Virus record (IMG/VR): IMGVR_UViG_3300009425_002606
Coordinates: 1-21,935 of that record
Reading direction: 5' to 3' (one strand)
Origin: a virus
Length of the DNA: 21,935 nucleotides
Within the stretch, counting starts at the first letter, position 1, and each line of letters begins with the position of its first letter. Of this stretch, positions 1,630-21,651 are shown in pieces. Made by a program: the position numbers and the translations under genes. Under the pieces are notes generated by a model that had not been told where the DNA came from, ran no database searches, and worked only from the letters and a program-made list of their open reading frames with translations.

Positions 1630-1825
1630 AAAACAAAATTATTTCGGAGACGGGCCTTTTGGAAATAATGAATTTGATGATCTAGCAAATTCTGTAAAAA
1701 GAATTGTAGATAAAAAAGAAAAAGGCTTTAAATGGAGCAAGGAACAAATTCGCGATATGTCGGAACAAACCGCAAACAAATCTGTTCAAGATGCCTATGT
1801 GTCAATGGTTAAAGAGGATAAATGA
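1622..1825 (+). CDS. small acidic/basic phage protein, 67 aa, GTG start
   Basis: The start is GTG at 1622, supported by AGGAG at 1611-1615 six bases upstream. No ATG is available near the beginning of the frame. The product is hydrophilic, with a Gly/Asn-rich beginning (YFGDGPFGNNEF) followed by a charged helical stretch. No motif is recognised. Both ends overlap neighbours (eight bases upstream, ATGA downstream), so it is probably translated as part of the same polycistronic message. Confidence 0.6.
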   Translation: MAKKQNYFGDGPFGNNEFDDLANSVKRIVDKKEKGFKWSKEQIRDMSEQTANKSVQDAYVSMVKEDK

Positions 1826-3219
1826 CATCATTTATCGAATTACGTGAAGGAACACTAAAAACTGCTGTATTTACATTCGGCCGGTTTAATCCACCCACAA
1901 CCGGGCATGAGATTTTAGTTAATAAAATTATAACAGTGGCTTCTAGAAGTCGGGCAGATGCATTTGTTTTTTTAAGTTCCTCACAAGATTCGAAAAAAAA
2001 TCCATTAGATTATAAAGATAAAGTCAAATGGATGAAGAAAATGTTTAAGCCAAGAGGCCAAAAACTTTTTAAATATTCCAGGGAGCAACCCGAAGATGTT
2101 ATGAAAGTTGCTTCTTTATTGCACGATAAAGGATATGAACAAATCATTATGGTTGTTGGTAGCGACAGAATAAATGATTTTAAAAAACTCTTATCTCAAT
2201 ATAATGGCGTTAAAGATAAGCCGCATGGATTTTATGATTTTAAAAAAATAGAAATAGAAAGCGCAGGAGAAAGAGATCCTGACGCGGATGATGCGACAGG
2301 TATGTCTGCATCTAAGTTAAGGTCCCTCGCCATAGACAGCGATTTCGAGACGTTTAAAACCGGTTTACCGGATACTTTAAGTGAAAAAGACAAAAGAATT
2401 CTATATCAATTATTAAGAAAACAAATGAAGCTAAGTGTAATGGAAAAACAAATAAAAGAAAAATTCAATACTTCGGAAGTGCTTAACACGAGCATAAAGC
2501 GCCCGCAGCCGGTTGCTCCGATGCCCAAAGGAAATACCCCGAAACAACAAAAAAAGAGTGCTGCTTCTTTTATTGCCAAAACCTTACCAAAAGAAAAGAA
2601 AGTTCCAGCAATACCTGGAGTAGATGATGTAGATGAAGTAAAAGAAGGTTTATGGATAGAAAAAGTTGAATTTGAAGGCGAAACATATCATGTAGATAAG
2701 AAAGCCGCTGTAATATTTAATTACATAAAATCCTTACCATATAATACTCAAGAAATATCTTATATTAGAGGATGTTTAAAAGAATGCCAAGGTTTTTTTG
2801 ATAATTTTACATTAATAACGGAAAAAATAAAACTTTGGGAACTTTCAAAATTAAGAGGACTTATTAAAAAGACATCTGATTATATAACTGTATTAGATGA
2901 AGGATCCGGAATGATTGATTTTAATAAGGCAGATTTTTCATATTTACATGAAATGGTAGATACTCTTCCCGTAGATGAAGTTAACTTACAAGATCCAATT
3001 AGTAATAAATTACAAAAAATTCTTGGCTTAAGAGAATGGAATAAGAATCGGGCAGGAGAAGGCCAACAGTTAGAATTAGGAACAGATAAATATAGACAAT
3101 ATGTTGTGGCTTTGACTCCCGAAGAGGAGTTTAAAACCGAACAAGATAAAAAAAGATTAATGCAAACCGAAAGATATAATAAAATTCTTTCCAAAATAAT
3201 TGCTAGTAGGAGCAAATGA
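1822..3219 (+). CDS. HxGH-superfamily nucleotidyltransferase (NMNAT/cytidylyltransferase-like) with long C-terminal extension
   Basis: The 465-residue protein has an N-terminal nucleotidyltransferase domain of about 200 residues. It shows GRFNPPTTGH (20-29), the nucleotide-binding TxGH/HxGH motif, and GMSASKLR (160-167), matching the ISSTxxR-type second motif. Family members join a nucleotide to a phosphorylated small molecule, for example NMN to NAD+, with release of pyrophosphate. A low-complexity Pro/Lys linker (about 225-260) leads to a C-terminal region of about 200 residues that I do not recognise. It may bind a partner or the virion. The ATG overlaps the preceding stop (ATGA) and has AAAGAGG upstream. 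NMNAT-like is the best guess; the true substrate is unknown. It follows the ligase-like gene at 1-1041. Confidence 0.75.
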   Translation: MTSFIELREGTLKTAVFTFGRFNPPTTGHEILVNKIITVASRSRADAFVFLSSSQDSKKNPLDYKDKVKWMKKMFKPRGQKLFKYSREQPEDVMKVASLLHDKGYEQIIMVVGSDRINDFKKLLSQYNGVKDKPHGFYDFKKIEIESAGERDPDADDATGMSASKLRSLAIDSDFETFKTGLPDTLSEKDKRILYQLLRKQMKLSVMEKQIKEKFNTSEVLNTSIKRPQPVAPMPKGNTPKQQKKSAASFIAKTLPKEKKVPAIPGVDDVDEVKEGLWIEKVEFEGETYHVDKKAAVIFNYIKSLPYNTQEISYIRGCLKECQGFFDNFTLITEKIKLWELSKLRGLIKKTSDYITVLDEGSGMIDFNKADFSYLHEMVDTLPVDEVNLQDPISNKLQKILGLREWNKNRAGEGQQLELGTDKYRQYVVALTPEEEFKTEQDKKRLMQTERYNKILSKIIASRSK

Positions 3220-5573: not shown

Positions 5574-6317
5574 ATGTTTATAGTGATTGGAAACGGTGAG
5601 AGTCGGAAAGACTTTGACCTTAATTTATTATTGGATCATACAACATATGGATGTAATGCGATGTATAGAGATTGGACACCAACCAATCTTATATGCATTG
5701 ATAATAAAATGTTACATGAATTGGTAGAATCTCAATATCCTAAATCAAATCAATGTTGGTTTAGGAACTTTCAGTTACTGGATCCTGATATGTATCCGGT
5801 TTTTCGGTCAACGTTAAAGTCCGGAATAAAAGTAATAGAGAATAAAAAAACAGATTATAAATTCGCGCATTACGGGCAAGAAATTAGTAGAGTTTTTCAT
5901 GATGATACCCATACAATGGATTTACAAGAAAACCCATGCTATTGGTTCACATGGATCACCGAAGACGATAAGATAAATGTAGTTGATGATTATAAACATA
6001 TACCTTTGTTAGATTCAGGACCTCTTGCAACCTGGTTATGTTGTGAGAATGAAAATCCCGACAAGGTTTATTTAATGGGTTTTGATTTTAACATAAATAA
6101 TGGAAAAGTAAACAATATATATAAAGACACAGATTGCTATGCCCCTAGTTATGCATTACCGGTGAAAGCGGCAGGGTGGATTCAGAATTTTGAAGTAATG
6201 TTTACAGATTATTTTCCTGAAGTTGAATTTATACATGTTCAGGAAGAAAATTGTTTTAATAAAGAGATTTCTAATATAGATAATATTTCTATACGCGAAT
6301 TTAAAAAGTTGTTATAA
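5574..6317 (+). CDS. sialyltransferase-like (GT42/DUF115-type) Rossmann-fold protein
   Basis: The 247-residue protein begins MFIVIGNGESRKDFDLNLL, a nucleotide-sugar-binding-type GNGxS loop, followed by YGCNAMYRDW. Near residue 147 it has DSGPLATWLCC, then DKVYLMGFDFN. This layout (small-residue loop, helix, hydrophobic strand ending in GxDF) recalls Campylobacter CST-type sialyltransferases (GT42) and the DUF115/MptE-like group. No clear ribosome binding site precedes the ATG. The gene lies between virion-type genes rather than in the sugar cassette 10 kb downstream. A role in glycosylating the particle or the host surface is inference; the fold similarity is by eye. Its stop codon lies inside a T4-type late promoter element. 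Confidence 0.6.
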   Translation: MFIVIGNGESRKDFDLNLLLDHTTYGCNAMYRDWTPTNLICIDNKMLHELVESQYPKSNQCWFRNFQLLDPDMYPVFRSTLKSGIKVIENKKTDYKFAHYGQEISRVFHDDTHTMDLQENPCYWFTWITEDDKINVVDDYKHIPLLDSGPLATWLCCENENPDKVYLMGFDFNINNGKVNNIYKDTDCYAPSYALPVKAAGWIQNFEVMFTDYFPEVEFIHVQEENCFNKEISNIDNISIREFKKLL

Positions 6318-11681: not shown

Positions 11682-12487
11682 ATGAAGAGGTGAAAGTTCA
11701 TGAAGATGGGCTAGTTAGATTATTAGATATTATGGGAAGTGATGACGATGTAGTTGATGCAGCACGAATAAGTTATGGTAAAGGCACAAAAAAAGTTAGC
11801 GAGACGCGTAATTTAATTCGATATTTAATGAGACATAAGCACACATCTCCCTTTGAAATGTGTGAAGTAAAATTCTATTTAAAATTACCTATCTTCGTTA
11901 TGAGACAAATAATTCGGCATCGGACGGCGAATTTAAATGAATATTCAGGACGATATTCGTTAATGAGTGAAGATTTTTACGTTCCTCATGACGATGATAT
12001 ACAAAAACAATCAACCCAGAACAATCAGGGTAGGGGTGAAGAAATTGAGCAAAAAGGTCTTGTTAAATTCGAATTTAATCGCATGTATGATAATGCTATT
12101 CAATCCTATCACAATTTATTAGATCTAGATTTAGCTCGAGAATTAGCGCGCTCTATTCTCCCAGTAGGCAACTATACCGAAGTTGTTTGGAAAATAGATT
12201 TGCATAATTTTTTCCATTTTTGTAAATTAAGAATGGATAATCACACGCAAAAAGAAACTCGTGATTATGCTAATGCTATGTATAAGTTGGTTAAGTCCGA
12301 ATTTCCTTTATGTTGTGAAGCATTTGAAGATTATAGTAAAGATGCTGTAACATTCTCTAAACAAGAAATGGAAATATTAAAGTATGAGTTGGCAGACCGA
12401 AGAAGAAGACCTAGAAATATTGAAGCACTATCAAATCGAGAACAAAAAGAATTCCTAGAAAAACTAGAAGCAAAGGAAATTGAATGA
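11678..12487 (+). CDS. thyX: flavin-dependent thymidylate synthase ThyX
   Basis: ThyX makes dTMP from dUMP using FAD, NADPH and methylene-tetrahydrofolate. The signature RHRX7S is present at 80-90 (RHRTANLNEYS followed by GRYS). Asn replaces the more usual Ser at the sixth position, but the conserved Ser90 is kept. I chose the ATG at 11678, which overlaps the primase stop (ATGA) and follows GGAAAAG, over a GTG four codons upstream. The length of 269 residues fits the family. It overlaps the next gene by ATGA, giving a coupled primase-thyX-reductase string that supplies dNTPs for replication. Confidence 0.93.
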   Translation: MNEEVKVHEDGLVRLLDIMGSDDDVVDAARISYGKGTKKVSETRNLIRYLMRHKHTSPFEMCEVKFYLKLPIFVMRQIIRHRTANLNEYSGRYSLMSEDFYVPHDDDIQKQSTQNNQGRGEEIEQKGLVKFEFNRMYDNAIQSYHNLLDLDLARELARSILPVGNYTEVVWKIDLHNFFHFCKLRMDNHTQKETRDYANAMYKLVKSEFPLCCEAFEDYSKDAVTFSKQEMEILKYELADRRRRPRNIEALSNREQKEFLEKLEAKEIE

Positions 12488-14445
12488 ACTTACCTACAGA
12501 ATATCAATCATTTATACATCTTTCAAGATATGCGAGATGGAGGTATGATGAAGAAAGAAGAGAAAAATGGTCTGAAACAATTGGAAGATATTTTGATTTT
12601 TTTAAAGATGATTTAAAAGAAAAATGTAATTATGATTTTACTGATACGGTAAGAAAAGAATTAGAAGAGGCGGTTCTAAATTTAGAAGTTATGCCATCTA
12701 TGAGATGTTTAATGACGGCCGGGGACCCTCTCAAAAAAGAAAATGTTGCTGGGTATAATTGTTCATATTTAAAATGTGATAATCAGAGAACGTTTGATGA
12801 AATTATGTATGTTTTAATGAATGGAACAGGAGTTGGGTTTTCCGTTGAAGAAAAATATACAAATCAAATGCCAATTATCGCAGAAGAATTTTTTCCAACA
12901 GATACCACTATAGTAGTTGCAGATAGTAAATTGGGATGGTGTAAAGCTTATAAGGAATTAGTCTCATTATTATATCAAGGACAGAAGCCTAAATGGGATA
13001 TGAGTAAGGTAAGAGCCGCCGGTATGCCTTTAAAAACTTTTGGTGGTAGAGCTTCTGGTCCGGAGCCGCTAGTAGATTTATTTAACTTCGTAACAGAAAT
13101 TATTTCAAATGCTGCGGGAAGAAAGCTTAAACCAATTGAATGTCATGACATTATATGTAAAACCGCGGAAGTAGTTGTAGTGGGCGGCGTACGAAGAAGT
13201 GCTCTCATTAGTCTAAGTGATCTAAATGATCGAGAAATGAGATTTGCAAAACATGGAGAATGGTATAAAGGTAATGTTCAGCGCGCATTATCAAACAATT
13301 CTGTTAATTATAAAGAAAAACCTGACGTTGGTACTTTTATGAGAGAGTGGTTATCTCTTTATGATTCAAAATCTGGAGAACGCGGAATATATAATGGAGA
13401 TTCCGCTAATCGACAAGTACAAAAATTAAATGAAAGGGAGCAAGATGGACATGGAGGATTTTTACGAAGACGAGATTCCGGACATGAGTTTGGCACAAAT
13501 CCGTGCAGCGAGATCATTTTACGGTCACGAGAATTTTGCAACTTATCTGAAGTCGTTGTCAGAGGACGGGACTCTCGCGAGTCTCTTAAGATCAAAGTTC
13601 GCAATGCAACAATTCTTGGAACCTTCCAATCAACCCTCACTAACTTCAAATACCTTACTAAAGAATGGGCTAGAAACTGCGAAGAAGAGCGACTTCTGGG
13701 AGTTTCTCTTACCGGAATAATGGATAATGAATTAACAAATGGAAAAAGAGGAAAAGAAAAAACTGGTAAACTTTTAGAGGAACTCCGAGATGTTGCTATC
13801 GAAACAAATAAAGAGTGGGCAGAAAAACTGGGGATTCCGAGATCTGCGGCGGTTACTTGTGTCAAACCGAGTGGAACTGTTTCTCAGCTCGTTGACAGTG
13901 CTAGTGGTATTCATGCTCGTCATAATCCCTATTATATACGAACTGTGCGGGCCGATAATAAAGATCCTTTATGTAAGTTCATGAAAGAGGCCAATTTTCC
14001 GAATGAACCCGATATAACAAAACCAGCACATACTTCAGTATTTTCTTTTCCACAAAAAAGTCCAAAGGGGGCCGTATGTAGAATGGATATGACAGCTATA
14101 GAACAGTTAGAATTGTGGAAAATATATCAAGACCATTGGTGCGAACATAAACCATCTATTACAATATCGGTTAAGGAACACGAATGGATGGTTGTAGGTT
14201 CTTGGGTTTGGGATAATTTTGATTCTATTAGTGGTATTTCATTTTTACCATTTAGTGAACACGCATATAAACAAGCTCCTTACCAAGATTGCGATGAAAA
14301 ACAGTATAAAGAATTACTATCAAAAATGCCCAAAAATGTAGCTTGGGATAAATTAAGTGATTATGAAAAAGAAGACCATACAGCCGGTGCGCAAACACAA
14401 GCCTGTGGGAGTGATGGTGGTTGTGAAGTTGTAGATTTGATTTAA
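12484..14445 (+). CDS. nrdJ: class II (adenosylcobalamin-dependent) ribonucleotide reductase, monomeric type
   Basis: It reduces ribonucleotides to deoxyribonucleotides. The 653-residue chain resembles the monomeric Lactobacillus leichmannii type. Cys93 (YNCSY) and Cys352 fit the active-site disulfide pair, and Cys341 in NPCSE (339-343) the thiyl radical cysteine. Cys341 and Cys352 are 11 residues apart, as are Cys408 and Cys419 in the Lactobacillus enzyme. The C-terminal CGSDGGC (641-647) is the mobile reducing pair. It is shorter than the 739-residue relative. No separate radical-generating subunit is needed, so no nrdB or nrdD partner is expected. It overlaps thyX by ATGA. The segment 13441-13920, which encodes the active site, has clearly higher G+C and C-ending codons than its flanks. 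Confidence 0.9.
   Translation: MNLPTEYQSFIHLSRYARWRYDEERREKWSETIGRYFDFFKDDLKEKCNYDFTDTVRKELEEAVLNLEVMPSMRCLMTAGDPLKKENVAGYNCSYLKCDNQRTFDEIMYVLMNGTGVGFSVEEKYTNQMPIIAEEFFPTDTTIVVADSKLGWCKAYKELVSLLYQGQKPKWDMSKVRAAGMPLKTFGGRASGPEPLVDLFNFVTEIISNAAGRKLKPIECHDIICKTAEVVVVGGVRRSALISLSDLNDREMRFAKHGEWYKGNVQRALSNNSVNYKEKPDVGTFMREWLSLYDSKSGERGIYNGDSANRQVQKLNEREQDGHGGFLRRRDSGHEFGTNPCSEIILRSREFCNLSEVVVRGRDSRESLKIKVRNATILGTFQSTLTNFKYLTKEWARNCEEERLLGVSLTGIMDNELTNGKRGKEKTGKLLEELRDVAIETNKEWAEKLGIPRSAAVTCVKPSGTVSQLVDSASGIHARHNPYYIRTVRADNKDPLCKFMKEANFPNEPDITKPAHTSVFSFPQKSPKGAVCRMDMTAIEQLELWKIYQDHWCEHKPSITISVKEHEWMVVGSWVWDNFDSISGISFLPFSEHAYKQAPYQDCDEKQYKELLSKMPKNVAWDKLSDYEKEDHTAGAQTQACGSDGGCEVVDLI
13441..13920 (+). 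other. GC-richer mosaic segment inside the reductase gene
   Basis: By hand count, lines of 60 bases from 13441 to 13680 have 40-47% G+C and 13801-13920 have 47-48%, against 28% at 12541-12600 and 13261-13320. Codons shift to TGC, AAC, GTC, ATC, TTC, CTC and CGC, where the flanks use TTA, AGA, AAT and GAT. The segment begins about 60 bases before NPCSE. The reading frame is intact. Confidence 0.6.
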
Positions 14446-14708: not shown

Positions 14709-15185
14709 ATGAAAGTTTTTATTGATATGGATGGTGTTTTATCAGATTTTAATAAATCCATCATCGAAAAGTTTGGTACTAAAAAAGAATGGAAACAAGG
14801 TGGCATAGAAAGGTGGGAACTTCTCCCTGAAGATTTTTTCCTTTCCCTTCCCAAAATGACAGATGCTGATGAATTAGTAAATCATATTTCTGGACAATTT
14901 GATTGGCATGTTCTTTCCGCGATTCCCGACGAACCTGTTTTTCCCGAATGCCGCCGGCAAAAAATGCAATGGGTTTTTGAACACTATAAATTATACCCTG
15001 TGAGGGTTCATTGTGTTTATCAAAGGGAAAAACAATATTATGCCGCTGAAGAAAATTTATCTCCGAATATTTTAATTGATGATTCCGAATCAAATGTAGC
15101 TGAATGGAAGGCAAAAGGTGGCATTGCTATCTTACATACATCTGCAAATGATAGTATAAGAGAATTACAACAGTTAGGATTTTAA
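14709..15185 (+). CDS. HAD-superfamily phosphatase, 5'(3')-deoxyribonucleotidase-like
   Basis: The 158-residue protein begins MKVFIDMDGVLSDF, HAD motif I, with nucleophile Asp6 and acid/base Asp8. Motif IV is ILIDDSESN (Asp124, Asp125), followed by WKAKGGIAILH. A short cap containing WELLPEDFFLSLP fits the NT5C-like deoxyribonucleotidases, which remove the 5' phosphate from dNMPs. Length and position after thyX and the reductase agree with nucleotide pool control. An alternative, given the downstream heptose genes, is that it serves as the missing sugar-bisphosphate phosphatase (GmhB is also HAD). The sequence favours the nucleotidase. No clear ribosome binding site. Confidence 0.75.
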   Translation: MKVFIDMDGVLSDFNKSIIEKFGTKKEWKQGGIERWELLPEDFFLSLPKMTDADELVNHISGQFDWHVLSAIPDEPVFPECRRQKMQWVFEHYKLYPVRVHCVYQREKQYYAAEENLSPNILIDDSESNVAEWKAKGGIAILHTSANDSIRELQQLGF

Positions 15186-15725
15186 TTGATTTGCGCAGGA
15201 ATAGATTATTCTACAACCAGCCCATGTATTTGTATATTTAAAAAAGATGGAACAATTAATCCTATTGATTGTAATTTTAGTTTTTTTGCTTTGGATAAGT
15301 GGAGGCCTCGGTGGTCCGCCCTTCAAAATGTAAATTGTTATAAGTTACCAAAAGATTTAAAATTAATAGATAAGTATATTTTTTTAGCTGATTGGACCAT
15401 AGAAGCATTACGTTGGCATAATGGTAGAGTTGAGAAAGTTATAATAGAAGATTATTCTTATTCGTCTACAGGTAGAGTTTTTAACATTGCGGAAAATGTT
15501 GGTATTTTGAAATTTAAATTAAAACAGAATGGTTTCCGTTATGAAACAGTTCCTCCAACTGTTATTAAGAAGTTCGCAACGGGTAAGGGAAATTCTAATA
15601 AAGAAGCTATGCTAGAAGCATGGAAGGCAGAGCCGGATAATTTTGAATTAGTTCAAGAAAATGGCAACCCTGCAACCGATATTGTTGATTCTTACTATCT
15701 TTGTAAATATGGAGTTACTCAGTGA
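15186..15725 (+). CDS. RuvC-like Holliday junction resolvase, TTG start
   Basis: The protein has an RNase H fold resolvase pattern: GIDYSTTS with Asp7, VIIEDYSY with Glu88, a GKGNSNKEAML helix near 138-148, and ATDIVDSYYL with Asp165 and Asp168. It would cut branched DNA during replication, recombination or packaging, the job done by unrelated gp49 in T4. TTG at 15186 is the only start that keeps the first beta strand. AGGA at 15176-15179 lies six bases upstream, and it follows the HAD stop without a gap. Its last 11 bases overlap the end of the minus-strand gene at 15715. Confidence 0.75.
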   Translation: MICAGIDYSTTSPCICIFKKDGTINPIDCNFSFFALDKWRPRWSALQNVNCYKLPKDLKLIDKYIFLADWTIEALRWHNGRVEKVIIEDYSYSSTGRVFNIAENVGILKFKLKQNGFRYETVPPTVIKKFATGKGNSNKEAMLEAWKAEPDNFELVQENGNPATDIVDSYYLCKYGVTQ

Positions 15726-16101
15726 ATATATTTACATCTCGAGTATGTTCAGTAATCATCTCAATTTGTTTTTCTAGAATCTCTCGTCTTCCTGGCCAAT
15801 ATATATATTCATTAGTGGAAGATTTTGCTAAGTTGTTTAGCAGAGGTACAATTAAATCTTCAACTTCTTTCATCTGTCGGCTGAATTCTTTATTTAATTT
15901 TTCCTTATGTTTATCAATATCTTCGTAATGATAGTCCAGCAGACTCCAGATTTTATTCACGGTCCCCTCAACTTCTTTTATTTGTCCAGCCTTGGCTTTT
16001 TCAACCGCTGCGGAAACTACTTTCTCTTCTGGTTCTTTAGCGGCCGAAGTAAATTCTTGCTCACTAACAGTGCTGAAACCAAAATCATTTAATTCACTCA
16101 T
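15715..16101 (-). CDS. conserved T4-like phage protein, 128 aa, only minus-strand gene
   Basis: Read on the minus strand, the ATG at 16101 has an AAAGG site about four bases upstream. The N-terminal 45 residues are Ser/Glu/Ala-rich. A long charged helix follows (KIWSLLDYHYEDIDKHKEKLN), then VEDLIVPLLNNLAKSS and NEYIYWPGRREILEKQIEMI, a pattern I recall from a widely conserved family in marine T4-like phages without known function. The plus-strand frames over this region are short and lack family features. It is convergent with the resolvase gene (11-base overlap) and starts 11 bases from the divergent gene at 16113, so it needs its own promoter. I did not find a convincing one. Confidence 0.75.
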   Translation of the reverse strand: MSELNDFGFSTVSEQEFTSAAKEPEEKVVSAAVEKAKAGQIKEVEGTVNKIWSLLDYHYEDIDKHKEKLNKEFSRQMKEVEDLIVPLLNNLAKSSTNEYIYWPGRREILEKQIEMITEHTRDVNIFTE

Positions 16102-16112
16102 GATACCTTTCT

Positions 16113-16976
16113 ATGAAATTACAGTTTACTAATATATTTAGGACAGATGAAACTAACATAGGTGACTCGTATAGTACTCCTACAAAATATTTTGATTTGC
16201 CTGGAAATCAAAAAGATATTTTCCAATTAGAATATGATTATTCACCACCCCATGAAAATGTTATTTACGGCGGTGGGGGACTTATAGGCCAAATGAGACC
16301 AATGTCTCATGTTCTAAAACATCAAAAAAATTCTAATTATAGATTATATGGATGGGGACTAGGCGAACATATGTATATTTGTTTAGATGAACAAGTACAA
16401 TGTATTCCACCAATGAATATAACTTATCCGGCATATATAAGATCATTTGATTTATTGGGTATACGAGATCATCATCCACATCTATATAATTCTATACCAA
16501 CAGCAAGATGGGTTCCATGCTCCAGTTGTATGCACGAAGCCTTCGATAAAGAATATGAAGTAAAACATGATATTGTATTTTTTACTCATGCTTCTCTTCC
16601 AATGAATATTATTCATGGCATGCCGAAAGAAACTTGGGATTATCCTCATAAAGGAAACAATGAATTTAATTTTGAGGAAACAATAGAATTTATCGCAAGT
16701 GGAGATATTGTTGTTACAAATTCTTATCATGGTGCTTATTGGGCAACACTTTTGGGAAAGGTTGTAATAGTTTTTCCATGGTCTTCTAAATTTTATGGTT
16801 TAAAGCATACACCTTTATTTTGTCCTACAACTGATTGGTGGAAAACTGTTCAAGATAAGGAACAAAGACAATATAAAAGTTCTTTAGAAGAATGTAGAGA
16901 AGCAAATATAAATTTTCATAAAGAATTAACCGAACATATTTTAAATAGTCCTAGAACATTCAAGATCAACGTATGA
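16113..16976 (+). CDS. polysaccharide pyruvyltransferase family protein
   Basis: Family members (CsaB, WcaK type) add a pyruvyl ketal to sugars of cell-surface polymers. The 287-residue protein has the N-terminal NIGDSYS loop, GGGGLIG near residue 55, a YGWGLGEHMY segment, and the C-terminal signature TNSYHGAYWATLLGKVVIV, with the conserved His of the donor-binding site. The GT-B-like two-domain layout fits. No clear ribosome binding site precedes the ATG; it begins just upstream of the divergent minus-strand gene's start. It overlaps the glycosyltransferase by ATGA and opens the sugar cassette. Whether it moves pyruvate or is a glycosyltransferase-like relative cannot be decided here. Confidence 0.78.
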   Translation: MKLQFTNIFRTDETNIGDSYSTPTKYFDLPGNQKDIFQLEYDYSPPHENVIYGGGGLIGQMRPMSHVLKHQKNSNYRLYGWGLGEHMYICLDEQVQCIPPMNITYPAYIRSFDLLGIRDHHPHLYNSIPTARWVPCSSCMHEAFDKEYEVKHDIVFFTHASLPMNIIHGMPKETWDYPHKGNNEFNFEETIEFIASGDIVVTNSYHGAYWATLLGKVVIVFPWSSKFYGLKHTPLFCPTTDWWKTVQDKEQRQYKSSLEECREANINFHKELTEHILNSPRTFKINV

Positions 16977-17992
16977 AAGACATTTATAAAGATAAGACAA
17001 TCCCTCAAAGAAAAGAAAATAATATGGCCAAAGATTCTTTTGGGGGAACAGAATTAACAACCTTAGAATTATGGTCACATTTACCTGAAAAATATAAAAC
17101 AGATTATCAATGGGTAATTTCAAGATTATATCCAGAAAATATTCAAACTATTTTACCCAGAATTTGGTGGTTTCATGATTTAGCTAAAGATGGAAGTGGG
17201 GGCCATGATTTTTTAGGAAATAAAGACGGTGCGAAAGAATTTGAGAAATTAATCTTTTCGAGTTATTGGCAAATGCACACTTTTCTGGAAAAATATGATT
17301 TACCAATGGATCGCTGCGAGGTTCAAAAAACAGCTATATTTCCATATGAGCATTATGAAAAACCTAGAGACGGTAAAATAAATTTAATTTATGCTTCCAC
17401 TCCTCAAAGAGGTTTACATGTATTATGTAATGCCTTACACGAACTTGACAGAGATGATTGGCATTTACATGTATATTCAAGTTATCAGATATATGGTTGG
17501 AAAGAAAACGATCAACCATATCAAGAATTATTTGAACATGTTGAAAAAAATCCTAATATGACTCTTCATAAAATTGTTAAAGGGAGACCTTTAAGAGAAG
17601 AATGGAAAGATATGCATATTTGGACCTATCCATGTATATGGGAAGAAACTTCTTGTAGAACTGCTATGGAAGCAATGTCTTCCAGAACATTAATGCTTAC
17701 AAATAGTTTAGGTGCGTTACCGGAGACTTGCTCTGATCATGCATTTATGTATCCTTATATTAAAGATGAAATAGAACATTGTTATAGATTTGCAGATGAA
17801 GTAGATAAATTATTAGATACATATTGGGATGATGAAACACAGGATATTATAGATCGAGCTAAAAAACATGCGGACAAATATTATAGTTGGGATTACAGAG
17901 CACCTAAATGGATAGAGATGTTTGAATTAATGGATATTGAAGATGAACTCGAAGAAACAGAAGATGCCGAAAGAATAGCAACGGCCTTATGA
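16973..17992 (+). CDS. GT-B fold glycosyltransferase (GT4-like)
   Basis: The 339-residue protein has an N-terminal FGGTELTTLELW segment, a typical GGxE acceptor-side loop. The C-terminal donor domain has NLIYASTPQRGLHVL, a KxxGR-like region, and PCIWEETSCRTAMEAMSSRTLMLTNSLGALPE, which carries the E-x7-E nucleotide-sugar site. The first domain is short. It overlaps its neighbours by ATGA on both sides. Next to genes for an activated heptose, it is the natural candidate to transfer that sugar; the acceptor (virion, DNA, or host envelope) is unknown. The acidic C-terminal tail (EDELEETEDAER) is unusual. Confidence 0.82.
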   Translation: MKDIYKDKTIPQRKENNMAKDSFGGTELTTLELWSHLPEKYKTDYQWVISRLYPENIQTILPRIWWFHDLAKDGSGGHDFLGNKDGAKEFEKLIFSSYWQMHTFLEKYDLPMDRCEVQKTAIFPYEHYEKPRDGKINLIYASTPQRGLHVLCNALHELDRDDWHLHVYSSYQIYGWKENDQPYQELFEHVEKNPNMTLHKIVKGRPLREEWKDMHIWTYPCIWEETSCRTAMEAMSSRTLMLTNSLGALPETCSDHAFMYPYIKDEIEHCYRFADEVDKLLDTYWDDETQDIIDRAKKHADKYYSWDYRAPKWIEMFELMDIEDELEETEDAERIATAL

Positions 17993-18408
17993 AAAAAGGA
18001 TTTACAGCTTCTAGTTTTGATTTACTACATGCAGGCCATATTGTAATGTTAGAAGAAGCGAGAAAAAATTGTGATTATTTAATTGCTGGTCTTCACACCA
18101 GCCCTGCTCACAAAAAAAATCTAGTACAGTCTGTCTTTGAACGGTTCATACAATTAAGGGGATGTAAATATGTTGATGAAATCATTCCTTATGAATCAGA
18201 AATAGATCTTAAAAATATATTAAAAACAATAGAAATTAATATTAGATTTTTAGGTGATGATTATTCCCGTGACAAAAAACCCATAACAGGGTATAATACA
18301 TGTATCATGAAAAATATTGAACTTTATTATTGTAAAAGATTTCATCATTATTCATCAACTGAACTGAAGAAAAGAATTGTTAGTTTGTCAAACCCCCCTA
18401 CGGATTAG
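17989..18408 (+). CDS. sugar-phosphate cytidylyl/adenylyltransferase (HldE C-domain or TagD-like)
   Basis: The 139-residue enzyme has the HxGH motif at 14-17 (FDLLHAGH), an ERFIQLRG helix at 51-58, FLGDDYSRDKKPITGYN in the second half, and YSSTELKKRI (121-130), matching the ISSTxLKxRI signature. It should join a nucleotide to a sugar or polyol phosphate. Candidates are heptose-1-phosphate adenylyltransferase (as in the HldE C-domain) and glycerol-3-phosphate cytidylyltransferase; position between a glycosyltransferase and heptose genes favours the first. ATGA overlap with the upstream gene. Its last 32 bases overlap the start of the next gene. Confidence 0.8.
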   Translation: MKKGFTASSFDLLHAGHIVMLEEARKNCDYLIAGLHTSPAHKKNLVQSVFERFIQLRGCKYVDEIIPYESEIDLKNILKTIEINIRFLGDDYSRDKKPITGYNTCIMKNIELYYCKRFHHYSSTELKKRIVSLSNPPTD

Positions 18409-19339
18409 TTTTTTCGGCGGCGGAACCGATATTCCGGAATATTATACTGTAGCACCTAATGGTGGTCAAGTCATAAGTGCCGCTATCGATAAATCTACTT
18501 ATATTATATTGAATAGATTATATCGAGATCAATTTATTTGTAATTATACTAAAAAAGAAACTGTCGGAGAAGTTGATGATATCGAACATGAATATATTCG
18601 AGAAGTTCTTAGATATTTTGAGGTATCTCCCGGTCTTGAAATTACAACTTTAGCGGACATCCCTTCTGAGGGGTCTGGATTGGCTTCTTCTTCAAGTATA
18701 TTAGTTGGATTAATAAATGCTGTAAGTACTTGGATTGGGACCCCAATGAATCAGGTAGATATTGCTCATCTAGCATGTCATATTGAGCTTGAAATCTTAG
18801 ATAAGCCGATTGGGAAGCAAGATCAATTTGCGGTTAGTTACGGCGGTTTTAACCACTTTCGGTTTTTTGAAGATAGTAGAGTAGAAATCAAAGAATTACA
18901 ATATAATTCAGATTTTGAAAAAAAGTTCGTTTTGGTTAATACTGGACATCATAGACAATCATCTACAATCCTTACTTCTCAGAAAAGTTCTATAGAGAAA
19001 AATTTAAAAAAATATAATAAAATATATGACTTTTGTACTCAAGCTTTAGATTATTATAAGCAGGGTGAATATGATGATTTTGGTATATATATGAGTAAAT
19101 CTATGGATATTAAAAGTACTCTTGCTAAAGGAATCACTAATGATGGTATTAATGCCATCATGCAGACATCTCTTTCTTGGGCTACAGGATGTAAAATATG
19201 TGGAGCAGGTGGCGGAGGATATATACTTTTTATGACAGATCATGCTAAGGAGATACATATGAAAAATAGAACTTTAGACACATTTGATGTAAAATTTGAT
19301 AATATGGGAACAAGAATAGTATTTAATAATGAAAAATAA
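18377..19339 (+). CDS. hddA: GHMP kinase, D-glycero-D-manno-heptose-7-phosphate kinase type (HddA)
   Basis: HddA phosphorylates heptose 7-phosphate at C1. The 320-residue protein begins close to the family's PLRISFFGGGTD signature, here at residues 7-18. It has the GHMP ATP loop GSGLASSSS (99-107), EILDKPIGKQDQFAVSYGG, and the C-terminal GAGGGGYILF motif. No ATG lies near the signature. TTG at 18377 gives the usual N-terminal length and has GAAGAAAAGA upstream, so I accept it, with a 32-base overlap into the cytidylyltransferase gene in another frame. The kinase class is confident; heptose specificity rests on motif resemblance and the gmhA-like neighbour. Confidence 0.82.
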   Translation: MLVCQTPLRISFFGGGTDIPEYYTVAPNGGQVISAAIDKSTYIILNRLYRDQFICNYTKKETVGEVDDIEHEYIREVLRYFEVSPGLEITTLADIPSEGSGLASSSSILVGLINAVSTWIGTPMNQVDIAHLACHIELEILDKPIGKQDQFAVSYGGFNHFRFFEDSRVEIKELQYNSDFEKKFVLVNTGHHRQSSTILTSQKSSIEKNLKKYNKIYDFCTQALDYYKQGEYDDFGIYMSKSMDIKSTLAKGITNDGINAIMQTSLSWATGCKICGAGGGGYILFMTDHAKEIHMKNRTLDTFDVKFDNMGTRIVFNNEK

Positions 19340-20024
19340 AAATATAGAAGTAATTTGGAAGTCAGATCTAATAAGTAATAGTATGCCTGATATTAAAGTG
19401 AATTCAGAAATAGAATTAAGAAGATCATTAATTAAAAAAGGCTGGCAATCGCATGTTAATTCTATAAGTAATTCTCTGCATTTAGTTTCAGAAAAACAAC
19501 TTGATGAACTATTAAAGAGCATTTGGGACATATATATAAACGAAAAACAGTTTTTTATATGTGGAAATGGGGGAAGTGCATGTAATTCTAATCACTTCGC
19601 TCAAGATTTAACAAAAGGAACTATTGAAAATGGACTTTCAAGACCTAGAATCAAAGCTATATCTCTTTGCAATGACATCGGCTTCATTACTGCTACATCT
19701 AATGACGATTCTTACAATAATATATTTAAGCACCAACTTGTAACTTATGCTAATAAGGGCGATGGATTATTTGTTCTTAGTGGAAGTGGCAATAGTAAAA
19801 ATCTTATAGAAGCCGTTGAATGGGCCGATTCAAACGGAATGGAAACTTTCGGCATTTTGGGATATGATGGGGGAATTTTGAAAGATAGACTCTCAAATTA
19901 TATACATATTAATTTAAATCATATGGAAAAATGTGAAGGCATAATGTCTATTATCTTACATTATATTATGTGTGAGCTAAAAGAATTATATAACGTAACG
20001 CTTGGAAAGTACGAAGGTAGCTAA
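19329..20024 (+). CDS. gmhA: sedoheptulose-7-phosphate isomerase (GmhA-like SIS protein)
   Basis: GmhA converts sedoheptulose 7-phosphate to D-glycero-D-manno-heptose 7-phosphate, the first step of heptose synthesis. The SIS fold shows CGNGGSACNSNHFAQDL (78-94) and SGSGNSKN (151-158), both phosphate-binding loops, with a conserved late His in ILHYIMCEL. Where E. coli GmhA has HFAEE, this protein has His89 and Asp93 (HFAQD), as in the HFxxDLxKG subgroup. At 231 residues it is about 35 longer than E. coli GmhA because of an N-terminal extension. It overlaps hddA by 11 bases. Its substrate could be another sugar phosphate, but pairing with HddA supports heptose. Confidence 0.83.
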   Translation: MKNKNIEVIWKSDLISNSMPDIKVNSEIELRRSLIKKGWQSHVNSISNSLHLVSEKQLDELLKSIWDIYINEKQFFICGNGGSACNSNHFAQDLTKGTIENGLSRPRIKAISLCNDIGFITATSNDDSYNNIFKHQLVTYANKGDGLFVLSGSGNSKNLIEAVEWADSNGMETFGILGYDGGILKDRLSNYIHINLNHMEKCEGIMSIILHYIMCELKELYNVTLGKYEGS

Positions 20025-20792
20025 ATGGCTTTTTCGAAAAGAAGTATTAACGCAAAATATATGGGTGACGAACCGGATCCGAATGATTGGGATAGTTTGC
20101 CTCTCGATAAATTAAAATCTGAAATTCATGAAGCCTTTAGATGGTATTATAAATTTTTTGATTTTAAAGAGAGTATGGAGTTTGTTCAAGAATATTATAA
20201 AAAAAATAAAGTAAAAAGTAAATCTCCCGGAAAACTTAAAATCACAGATTTAATCGAGGTTGGAAATCATGTTGGTTATATTGCGCGAATGAAATTAAGG
20301 GGATTAAAGAGTTTACCAGAAGAATATGAAGATCTTTTTATTCAAAAATTAAAAAAGATAGAACAGATTGCCGAGAATCGTAAAGTAGCAGTAGATACAA
20401 AATCTAAAGTAAAACCAGATATTCAGAAAAGAATTCGAGAAGCCGCGAAAAATTTAAAGTATGATATAGAGGATATTGTTGACGAACAACTCGAAGAAAA
20501 TTTTAAAAAGAAATATAATTTTAAACAATTTGTAGCACATAATAAAATTTCAAGGCCAGTAGCTAAACATTTAAAATCTGAAATTGTAGAAATGGCTAGT
20601 GAAATAAAATTAGCCAAAGAAGGTGATGTAGATTTTGCAGAAGCTTATAGCCATTTAAATAAACCCTTACAAAATAGATTAATTAAATTTTATGATATGA
20701 TGATAGAAGAATGTGAAATAATAATCACAACAAAAAAAGAAAAGAAAGTAAAACTGGGAAAGAAAATTAAAATTAAAAAACTAAAAAAATAA
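20025..20792 (+). CDS. conserved T4-like phage protein, basic, 255 aa, unknown function
   Basis: The ATG directly follows the gmhA stop and has AAGGT about nine bases upstream. The sequence PNDWDSLPLDKLKSEIHEAFRWYYKFFDF near the N-terminus resembles a family I remember from marine T4-like phages. A linker and a long, charged helical part follow (about 95-235). The C-terminus is a lysine-rich tail (KKEKKVKLGKKIKIKKLKK), suggesting contact with nucleic acid. My memory is that relatives have a longer C-terminal domain, so this may be a short version; I could not check. Directly upstream of RNase H, it may belong to the replication module. Confidence 0.6.
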   Translation: MAFSKRSINAKYMGDEPDPNDWDSLPLDKLKSEIHEAFRWYYKFFDFKESMEFVQEYYKKNKVKSKSPGKLKITDLIEVGNHVGYIARMKLRGLKSLPEEYEDLFIQKLKKIEQIAENRKVAVDTKSKVKPDIQKRIREAAKNLKYDIEDIVDEQLEENFKKKYNFKQFVAHNKISRPVAKHLKSEIVEMASEIKLAKEGDVDFAEAYSHLNKPLQNRLIKFYDMMIEECEIIITTKKEKKVKLGKKIKIKKLKK

Positions 20793-20793
20793 T

Positions 20794-21651
20794 ATGATAT
20801 TAATTGATTATAACCAGATGGTAATTGCTAATTTTATGGGATTCCGGAAACAATTTGAACCAGGTAAAGAGGATGCCACGATGAGGCATATGGTTCTCCA
20901 TAATATTAAAATGATCAAGAATAAATTTAGCAATAAGTATGGAAAAGAAGTTGTTTTTTGTTGCGATAATAAAAAAAATTGGCGCAAAGACATTTATCCT
21001 TTTTATAAGGCCAATAGAAAGAAAGCAAGAGAAGAAAATAAACAAAATGTAGATTGGCAAGTGCTATTTAATACAATGGATAATATACGAAATGAAATAG
21101 CAGAAAATATGCCTTACAGAGTAGTTACTTTGGAAGGATGTGAAGCAGATGATATTATCGGGGTTATTTGTAAAGAATTTTCTCATAGAGATTATAATAT
21201 ATTGATAGTTTCTTCTGATAAAGATTTTATCCAATTGCAAAAATATCCTAATGTTTCTCAATGGTCTCCTCGAACTAAAAAGTTTATTAAAGAAAGTGAT
21301 CCGGAAGGTCAATTGAGGTCTTTAATAGTAAAAGGAGATAGAAGTGATGGAATACCTAATATTCTTTCAAATGACGATTGCTTTGTAGAAGGACTACGAC
21401 AAAAGCCAATGTCGAAGAAGAAGATCATGGAATGGCTAAATATAGTACCGGAAAAAGTCCTTGAGGGTGAAATCTTAAGAAACTTTAAACGGAATGAAAC
21501 TTTAATAGATCTTGGCTGTATTCCAGATAAGATCGTTATAAATATAAGAACAAGGTATGAGAACGACCAATATTTGGGTCGTGATAGAATGCTCAATTAT
21601 TTTATTAAGCATCGACTTAAAGATATGACTGAATCGATACAGGAGTTTTAA
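20794..21651 (+). CDS. rnh: T4-type RNase H, 5'-3' exonuclease (FEN1 family)
   Basis: It removes RNA primers and some adjacent DNA from lagging-strand fragments. The 285-residue chain has Asp5 in MILIDYNQM, CCDNKKNWRKDIYPFYKANRK near 55-75, EGCEADDIIG (114-123), SSDKDF (140-145) and KGDRSDGIPNI (180-190). This is the full acidic metal-binding set of T4 RNase H and FEN-1 nucleases, and the length is close to T4's 305. It starts one base after the previous stop without a visible binding site. It follows a conserved unknown and precedes a DUF6433-like gene. Confidence 0.9.
   Translation: MILIDYNQMVIANFMGFRKQFEPGKEDATMRHMVLHNIKMIKNKFSNKYGKEVVFCCDNKKNWRKDIYPFYKANRKKAREENKQNVDWQVLFNTMDNIRNEIAENMPYRVVTLEGCEADDIIGVICKEFSHRDYNILIVSSDKDFIQLQKYPNVSQWSPRTKKFIKESDPEGQLRSLIVKGDRSDGIPNILSNDDCFVEGLRQKPMSKKKIMEWLNIVPEKVLEGEILRNFKRNETLIDLGCIPDKIVINIRTRYENDQYLGRDRMLNYFIKHRLKDMTESIQEF

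Follow-up and report, generated by a model that had tools for sequence, protein, structure and literature searches.

In a viral DNA stretch of 21,935 bases (IMG/VR record IMGVR_UViG_3300009425_002606, positions 1 to 21,935; hereafter the window), five open reading frames (ORFs) on the + strand at 16113-20024 form a cassette that is probably a partial supply line for a nucleoside diphosphate (NDP)-heptose-type sugar, coupled to a glycosyltransferase. This reading is preferred because the best curated and solved relatives of the kinase are heptose kinases, with the tested residues of WcbL kept, and because the best relatives of the isomerase are phosphoheptose isomerases. The cassette is a real, conserved variant of known phage glycan modules and is widespread in related phages. 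In the ORF list its five genes are co-directional, with head-to-tail overlaps of 4 to 32 bases each:

16113..16976, + strand: PYR, 287 aa, a protein of the PF04230 (polysaccharide pyruvyl transferase) family with a GT-B fold and uncertain activity
16973..17992, + strand: GT, 339 aa, a putative GT4-type glycosyltransferase, phrog_2170
17989..18408, + strand: NTase, 139 aa, a small HxGH sugar/alcohol-phosphate nucleotidyltransferase of the TagD/HldE-C type, PF01467
18377..19339, + strand: KIN, 320 aa, TTG start, a predicted HddA/WcbL-type sugar-phosphate anomeric kinase (GHMP)
19329..20024, + strand: ISO, 231 aa, a GmhA-like SIS isomerase with an H-D-E-H metal set (H89, D93, E203, H211)

Among all curated models KIN scores highest with HddA (NF049969), at 135 bits, well short of the cut-off of 600, and the PDB structures related to it are those of heptose kinases (3k85, 4n3o and 4usm/4usk). 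In WcbL, mutants of R13, D22, S118-120, Q162 and D163 have been tested, and Q162 was tied by the WcbL authors to a larger heptose pocket (PMC4691232). The corresponding positions in KIN are R9, D18, S104-106, Q148 and D149, with equal spacing and invariant in the alignment. By this comparison KIN is an HddA/WcbL-type kinase predicted to carry every tested WcbL catalytic residue. Its relatives on genome contigs form KIN-ISO operons, and a GmhB-like HAD gene, called by motif only, is found in the flank of 10 of the 34 isomerase loci; two of the motif-called GmhB genes (L180 and L204) are Pfam-confirmed HAD hydrolases. This neighborhood suggests that, as in the heptose pathway, the route passes through a bisphosphate. 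The kinase tree, with long branches and support of 46/49, neither establishes nor rejects a single origin for the phage kinases. The best kinase match in the phage collection, MT835644 ('Bacteriophage sp.'), groups with actinobacterial kinases and is not counted here as a precedent from phages.

ISO belongs to the SIS_2 family. Its best model is gmhA (TIGR00441), with 100 bits and a cut-off of 209 that is not reached, and its best relatives are phosphoheptose isomerases. The zinc ligands of B. pseudomallei GmhA are H64, E68, Q175 and H183, mutants of which are less active, and this H-E-Q-H set was reported to be fully conserved across GmhA orthologues (PMC5705639). At the ligand positions ISO has H89, D93, E203 and H211, spaced by 4 and 8 as in GmhA. 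In a sampling that favors relatives of the window's proteins, H-D-E-H is found in 32 of the 34 kinase-linked isomerases from genome contigs (one of them the phage-like L168), with H-E-Q-H in the other two, and in 40 of 40 further viral isomerases, with which two solved GmhA sequences carrying H-E-Q-H were co-aligned. Judged by these sequences, KIN together with an H-D-E-H isomerase is a recurrent unit, and to name such an isomerase GmhA would exceed the evidence; ISO is better called GmhA-like. The H-D-E-H metal set offers a testable rule for separating a large class annotated as 'phosphoheptose isomerase', in phages and genome assemblies, from GmhA proper. L168 comes from a genome assembly and is labelled Acidimicrobiaceae; it has phage gene order throughout and was treated as phage, the contig having probably been assigned to the wrong organism during binning.

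The same five-gene block, intact and in the same order, occurs in about 30 IMG/VR contigs, among them ones of 177, 167 and 151 kb, with kinase identities of 58-100%. When the window was compared with four relatives, the ratio of nonsynonymous to synonymous substitution rates (dN/dS) was 0.09-0.23 for the five cassette genes, similar to that of the core genes for RNase H and RuvC. These values indicate that the block is conserved beyond chance and that its genes are in use, with purifying selection on all five. At the DNA level, the cassette had a single, weak match in the phage collection. The best matches of the window's RNase H are in Methylophilales phage Melnitz (46%) and cyanophages (44%); together with a phage primase, they support the assignment of the window to a T4-like phage. 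On these grounds the five overlapping, co-directional genes in a T4-like genome, as described in the original prediction made from the letters and the ORF list, are borne out.

A scan with the isomerase alignment yielded 40 further, distant viral loci, for which the numbers are counts of contigs and not of events, several contigs being perhaps near copies. KIN lies in the flank of ISO in 36 of the 40; 22 have GT, KIN and ISO in an unbroken row, and in 20 an RNase H gene follows ISO at a distance of one to four genes. The repeated occurrence of a GT-KIN-ISO module immediately ahead of the gene for T4-type RNase H is new here. Given its fixed place in many T4-like phages, sugar making appears to be regular, not odd, in this group. 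An NTase and a GalE-like epimerase are found upstream of GT in L285 and L286, and a HAD protein follows ISO (L307, L309 and L165) or precedes GT (L291); HAD neighbors in the scan of the 40 loci were recognized by motif. In SynMITS9220M01 a HAD-NTase fusion comes directly after KIN-ISO, and the window's own clade encodes a short PF01370 epimerase beyond the window, some 6 kb after the cassette. The phage KIN-ISO pair is repeatedly adjoined by a GT, an NTase, a GalE-like epimerase or a HAD phosphatase, which supports the proposed supply line. The flanks of the cassette in the window contain the following:

14709..15185, + strand: NT5C-type HAD phosphatase upstream of the cassette, a candidate stand-in for the heptose bisphosphatase, more likely a deoxynucleotidase
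15715..16101, - strand: conserved small ORF that forms the left cassette boundary together with RuvC
20025..20792, + strand: phrog_11903 phage protein of unknown function, the right cassette boundary
20794..21651, + strand: T4-type RNase H, which marks the recurrent site of GT-KIN-ISO modules

GT matches PF13692 at 29.5 bits, above the cut-off, and phrog_2170; a sequence search of the PDB gave no match. Its AlphaFold2 model, built from six sequences, has a predicted local distance difference test score (pLDDT) of 78, and the best solved fold match is HepE (4xsp; Z 26.1, 2.6 A over 285 residues, 13% identity), with many GT4 enzymes trailing by few Z units; neither donor nor acceptor can be read from the fold. 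Sequence and model point to a GT4-type GT-B glycosyltransferase, and homologs of GT are found in phages Cr30, phiM12 and DLP6. NTase has the HxGH motif and matches PF01467 at 52.5 bits. It reaches the cut-off of neither the TagD model (TIGR01518; 51.9 bits vs 165.4) nor the HldE-C domain model (TIGR02199; 46.4 bits vs 181.5), and its solved relatives are cytidylyltransferases. The missing phosphatase may be supplied by the host or be a HAD protein of the phage. The NT5C-type protein was considered as the missing GmhB; it is not specific to the cassette, because it is also present in two relatives (L056 and L159) in which KIN and ISO are missing.

From the genes, families, conservation, linkage and kinase active site observed directly, we infer the substrate, donor, acceptor and every reaction of the following route. 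ISO would act on a ketose 7-phosphate from the host (sedoheptulose 7-phosphate being the likeliest) to yield an aldose 7-phosphate, and KIN would phosphorylate the anomeric carbon to give a 1,7-bisphosphate. The 7-phosphate would be removed by a phosphatase encoded outside the cassette, either GmhB of the host or a HAD protein of the phage, after which NTase would turn the 1-phosphate into an NDP-sugar. GT would pass this sugar, or something derived from it, on to an acceptor, with a host surface glycan as the likeliest candidate and a virion protein as the next, and PYR may act as a second GT-B-fold enzyme in the same glycan step. By analogy with other phages, a host surface glycan is the likeliest acceptor; passages of the pelagimyophage study (PMC7029224) argue that phage lipopolysaccharide (LPS) genes modify the host O-chain.

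Of the heptose cassette in the original prediction, KIN, ISO and a sugar-phosphate-type NTase beside a GT, and with them a plausible NDP-heptose-like donor, have held; the pyruvyl step, GmhA proper (two of the four zinc ligands differ) and an NTase in the HldE-C/HddC role (TagD scores equally well) have not. The profile searches of the five proteins proposed there as a check matched the families, and none of the heptose-pathway models reached its curated cut-off, which is why each role name is to be qualified by 'like'. The role names had the families right and were firmer than the data, with GmhA and HddA only 'like', the NTase ambiguous and the pyruvyltransferase doubtful.

Several points weigh against an NDP-heptose-type supply line. 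Two of GmhA's four zinc ligands are replaced in ISO, and NTase is inseparable between TagD and HldE-C by scores. The GmhB-type model TIGR01656 has no match in five related records, which may be incomplete (three of them are of 177, 151 and 167 kb); a control model for this search was matched in 14 of 14 genomes. The epimerases beside related modules resemble GalE, not the heptose 6-epimerase. Furthermore, GT and PYR-GT are found without the sugar genes (L056 and L159; for GT, also the rhizobial phages phiM12 and RHph_I1_18), so the donor of GT need not be the cassette's sugar.

Less probably, the H-D-E-H isomerase and its kinase make a different sugar 1-phosphate (a non-manno heptose or another ketose-phosphate product), and the NDP-sugar differs from ADP- or GDP-manno-heptose. 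The E-to-D and Q-to-E changes are consistent (32/34 and 40/40, as above), the HddA and gmhA scores of KIN and ISO are far under the curated cut-offs, and related modules have GalE-like C4 epimerase partners; however, KIN retains Gln148 at the WcbL position linked to the larger heptose pocket, and GmhB-like phosphatases stand beside KIN-ISO in 10 genome-collection loci. A farther-reaching and speculative possibility, to which we give somewhat less credence, is that the H-D-E-H isomerase and its dedicated kinase constitute an undescribed sugar-nucleotide pathway, not that of ADP/GDP-D-glycero-manno-heptose, in cellular genomes and T4-like phages, where a near-core module beside RNase H would glycosylate virions or the host surface.

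It is likewise unlikely that PYR is a true phosphoenolpyruvate (PEP)-dependent ketal pyruvyltransferase acting on the transferred sugar. PYR scores 31 bits with PF04230, above the cut-off, with the match confined to residues 179-225; it has no tblastn match in the phage collection and no meaningful PDB match by sequence. CsaB requires R148 and H308, to which docking adds R306 and K328 (PMC10435577). Matched by motif and spacing, not by superposition, R118, H206 and K226 of PYR correspond to R148, H308 and K328 of CsaB, with an H-to-K spacing of 20 in both. The AlphaFold2 model of PYR (pLDDT 85.9) has a GT-B fold, and Pvg1p is among its fold matches (Foldseek, VIA-align), with the top identity (16%) among the matches listed. 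In contrast, the PEP-binding arginine (CsaB R306, Pvg1p R337) is replaced by Ser204 in 20 of 20 PYR relatives, and UDP-GlcNAc 2-epimerases lead the fold matches (Z 15.4 vs 13.5 for Pvg1p). Pyruvyl transfer by PYR is possible, unsupported and, on present sequences, doubtful, and we do not retain the pyruvyl step of the original prediction, given the family-wide change of arginine to serine, the generic GT-B fold match and the occurrence of PYR-GT without sugar genes in L056. Another phage group (L061-L099) also has distant PYR homologs, two of them in L090, with other glycan genes and a nucleotidyltransferase of TagD-like type as neighbors.

The composition of the locus bears on whether the cassette works as a whole. 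Between the same flanking genes, L056 has PYR and GT only, followed by the right flank and without NTase-KIN-ISO, and L159 has GT only, without PYR, NTase, KIN or ISO; phiM12 and RHph_I1_18 have GT three genes ahead of RNase H, with no KIN or ISO adjoining. Because all four keep GT without KIN-ISO, GT is the most constant part of the locus, while PYR and NTase-KIN-ISO are variable in presence, whichever the direction of gain or loss. This variation would fit a loose assembly, with GT (and PYR) using an unrelated NDP-sugar from the host and NTase-KIN-ISO inserted later for a separate glycan. We consider such an assembly improbable, since in 22 of the 40 distant viral loci KIN-ISO comes right after GT, and in Cr30 the pair adjoins GT as well, which makes the association regular.

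T4-like phages glycosylate DNA, and the module lies among replication genes, beside RNase H; modification of phage DNA bases with a heptose-like sugar, also raised in the original prediction, is nevertheless very improbable and less likely than a host surface glycan or virion, as five related records, among them two of 167 and 177 kb, gave no match to a hydroxymethylase of the thymidylate-synthase fold, which leaves DNA glycosylation unsupported, and the phage uses ThyX, as seen in a profile scan.

Beside ThyX, an adenosylcobalamin-dependent ribonucleotide reductase was observed (window 12484-14445). A second, larger nucleotidyltransferase (phrog_3041, PF01467) is encoded outside the cassette at 1822-3219, and a phrog_30607 protein of unknown function, with no Pfam match, lies between structural-type genes at 5574-6317. 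Beyond the point where the window ends downstream, two T4-like relatives have a variable region (L010, 15184-18956; L101, 13471-18592) that encodes radical SAM/SPASM proteins together with an FkbM methyltransferase and a member of the tryptophan-halogenase family (PF04820, 250 bits); the region looks like a set for modifying peptides or metabolites.

The bacterial GDP-/ADP-heptose pathway (GmhA, HddA or HldE, GmhB, HddC or HldE-C) shares with the cassette the kinase type and, if the NDP-heptose-type reading is right, the reaction order, whereas in the cassette the metal ligands of ISO differ, GmhB is missing and NTase is of the HxGH type. Among phages, pelagimyophages carry LPS-related genes such as rfaE and glycosyltransferases according to passages of PMC7029224, and gmhA is listed as a marine viral auxiliary metabolic gene in part of PMC9238414; both concern marine phages and the same functional category, and the five-gene block and the H-D-E-H class are not described in those portions of the two papers. 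In Caulobacter phage Cr30, gp006-gp010 comprise an isomerase, a kinase, a GT and an epimerase, and gp178 is TagD-like. Like the window, Cr30 is T4-like and has homologous ISO (34%), KIN (33%) and GT (31%) side by side, with a homologous NTase elsewhere in the genome; unlike the window, its NTase is outside the block, an epimerase adjoins and PYR is absent. Synechococcus phage SynMITS9220M01 (genes 203-207) similarly has GT-KIN-ISO-NTase in one operon and an H-D-E-H ISO, but its NTase is fused to a HAD phosphatase domain, an epimerase adjoins, the operon is part of a large glycan cluster and its GT is not among the matches of the window's GT. Cr30, SynMITS9220M01 and the reported pelagimyophage LPS genes reduce the novelty claimed in the original prediction; what distinguishes the cassette from these systems is its H-D-E-H isomerase class, its recurrent place beside RNase H and a PYR with an altered active site.

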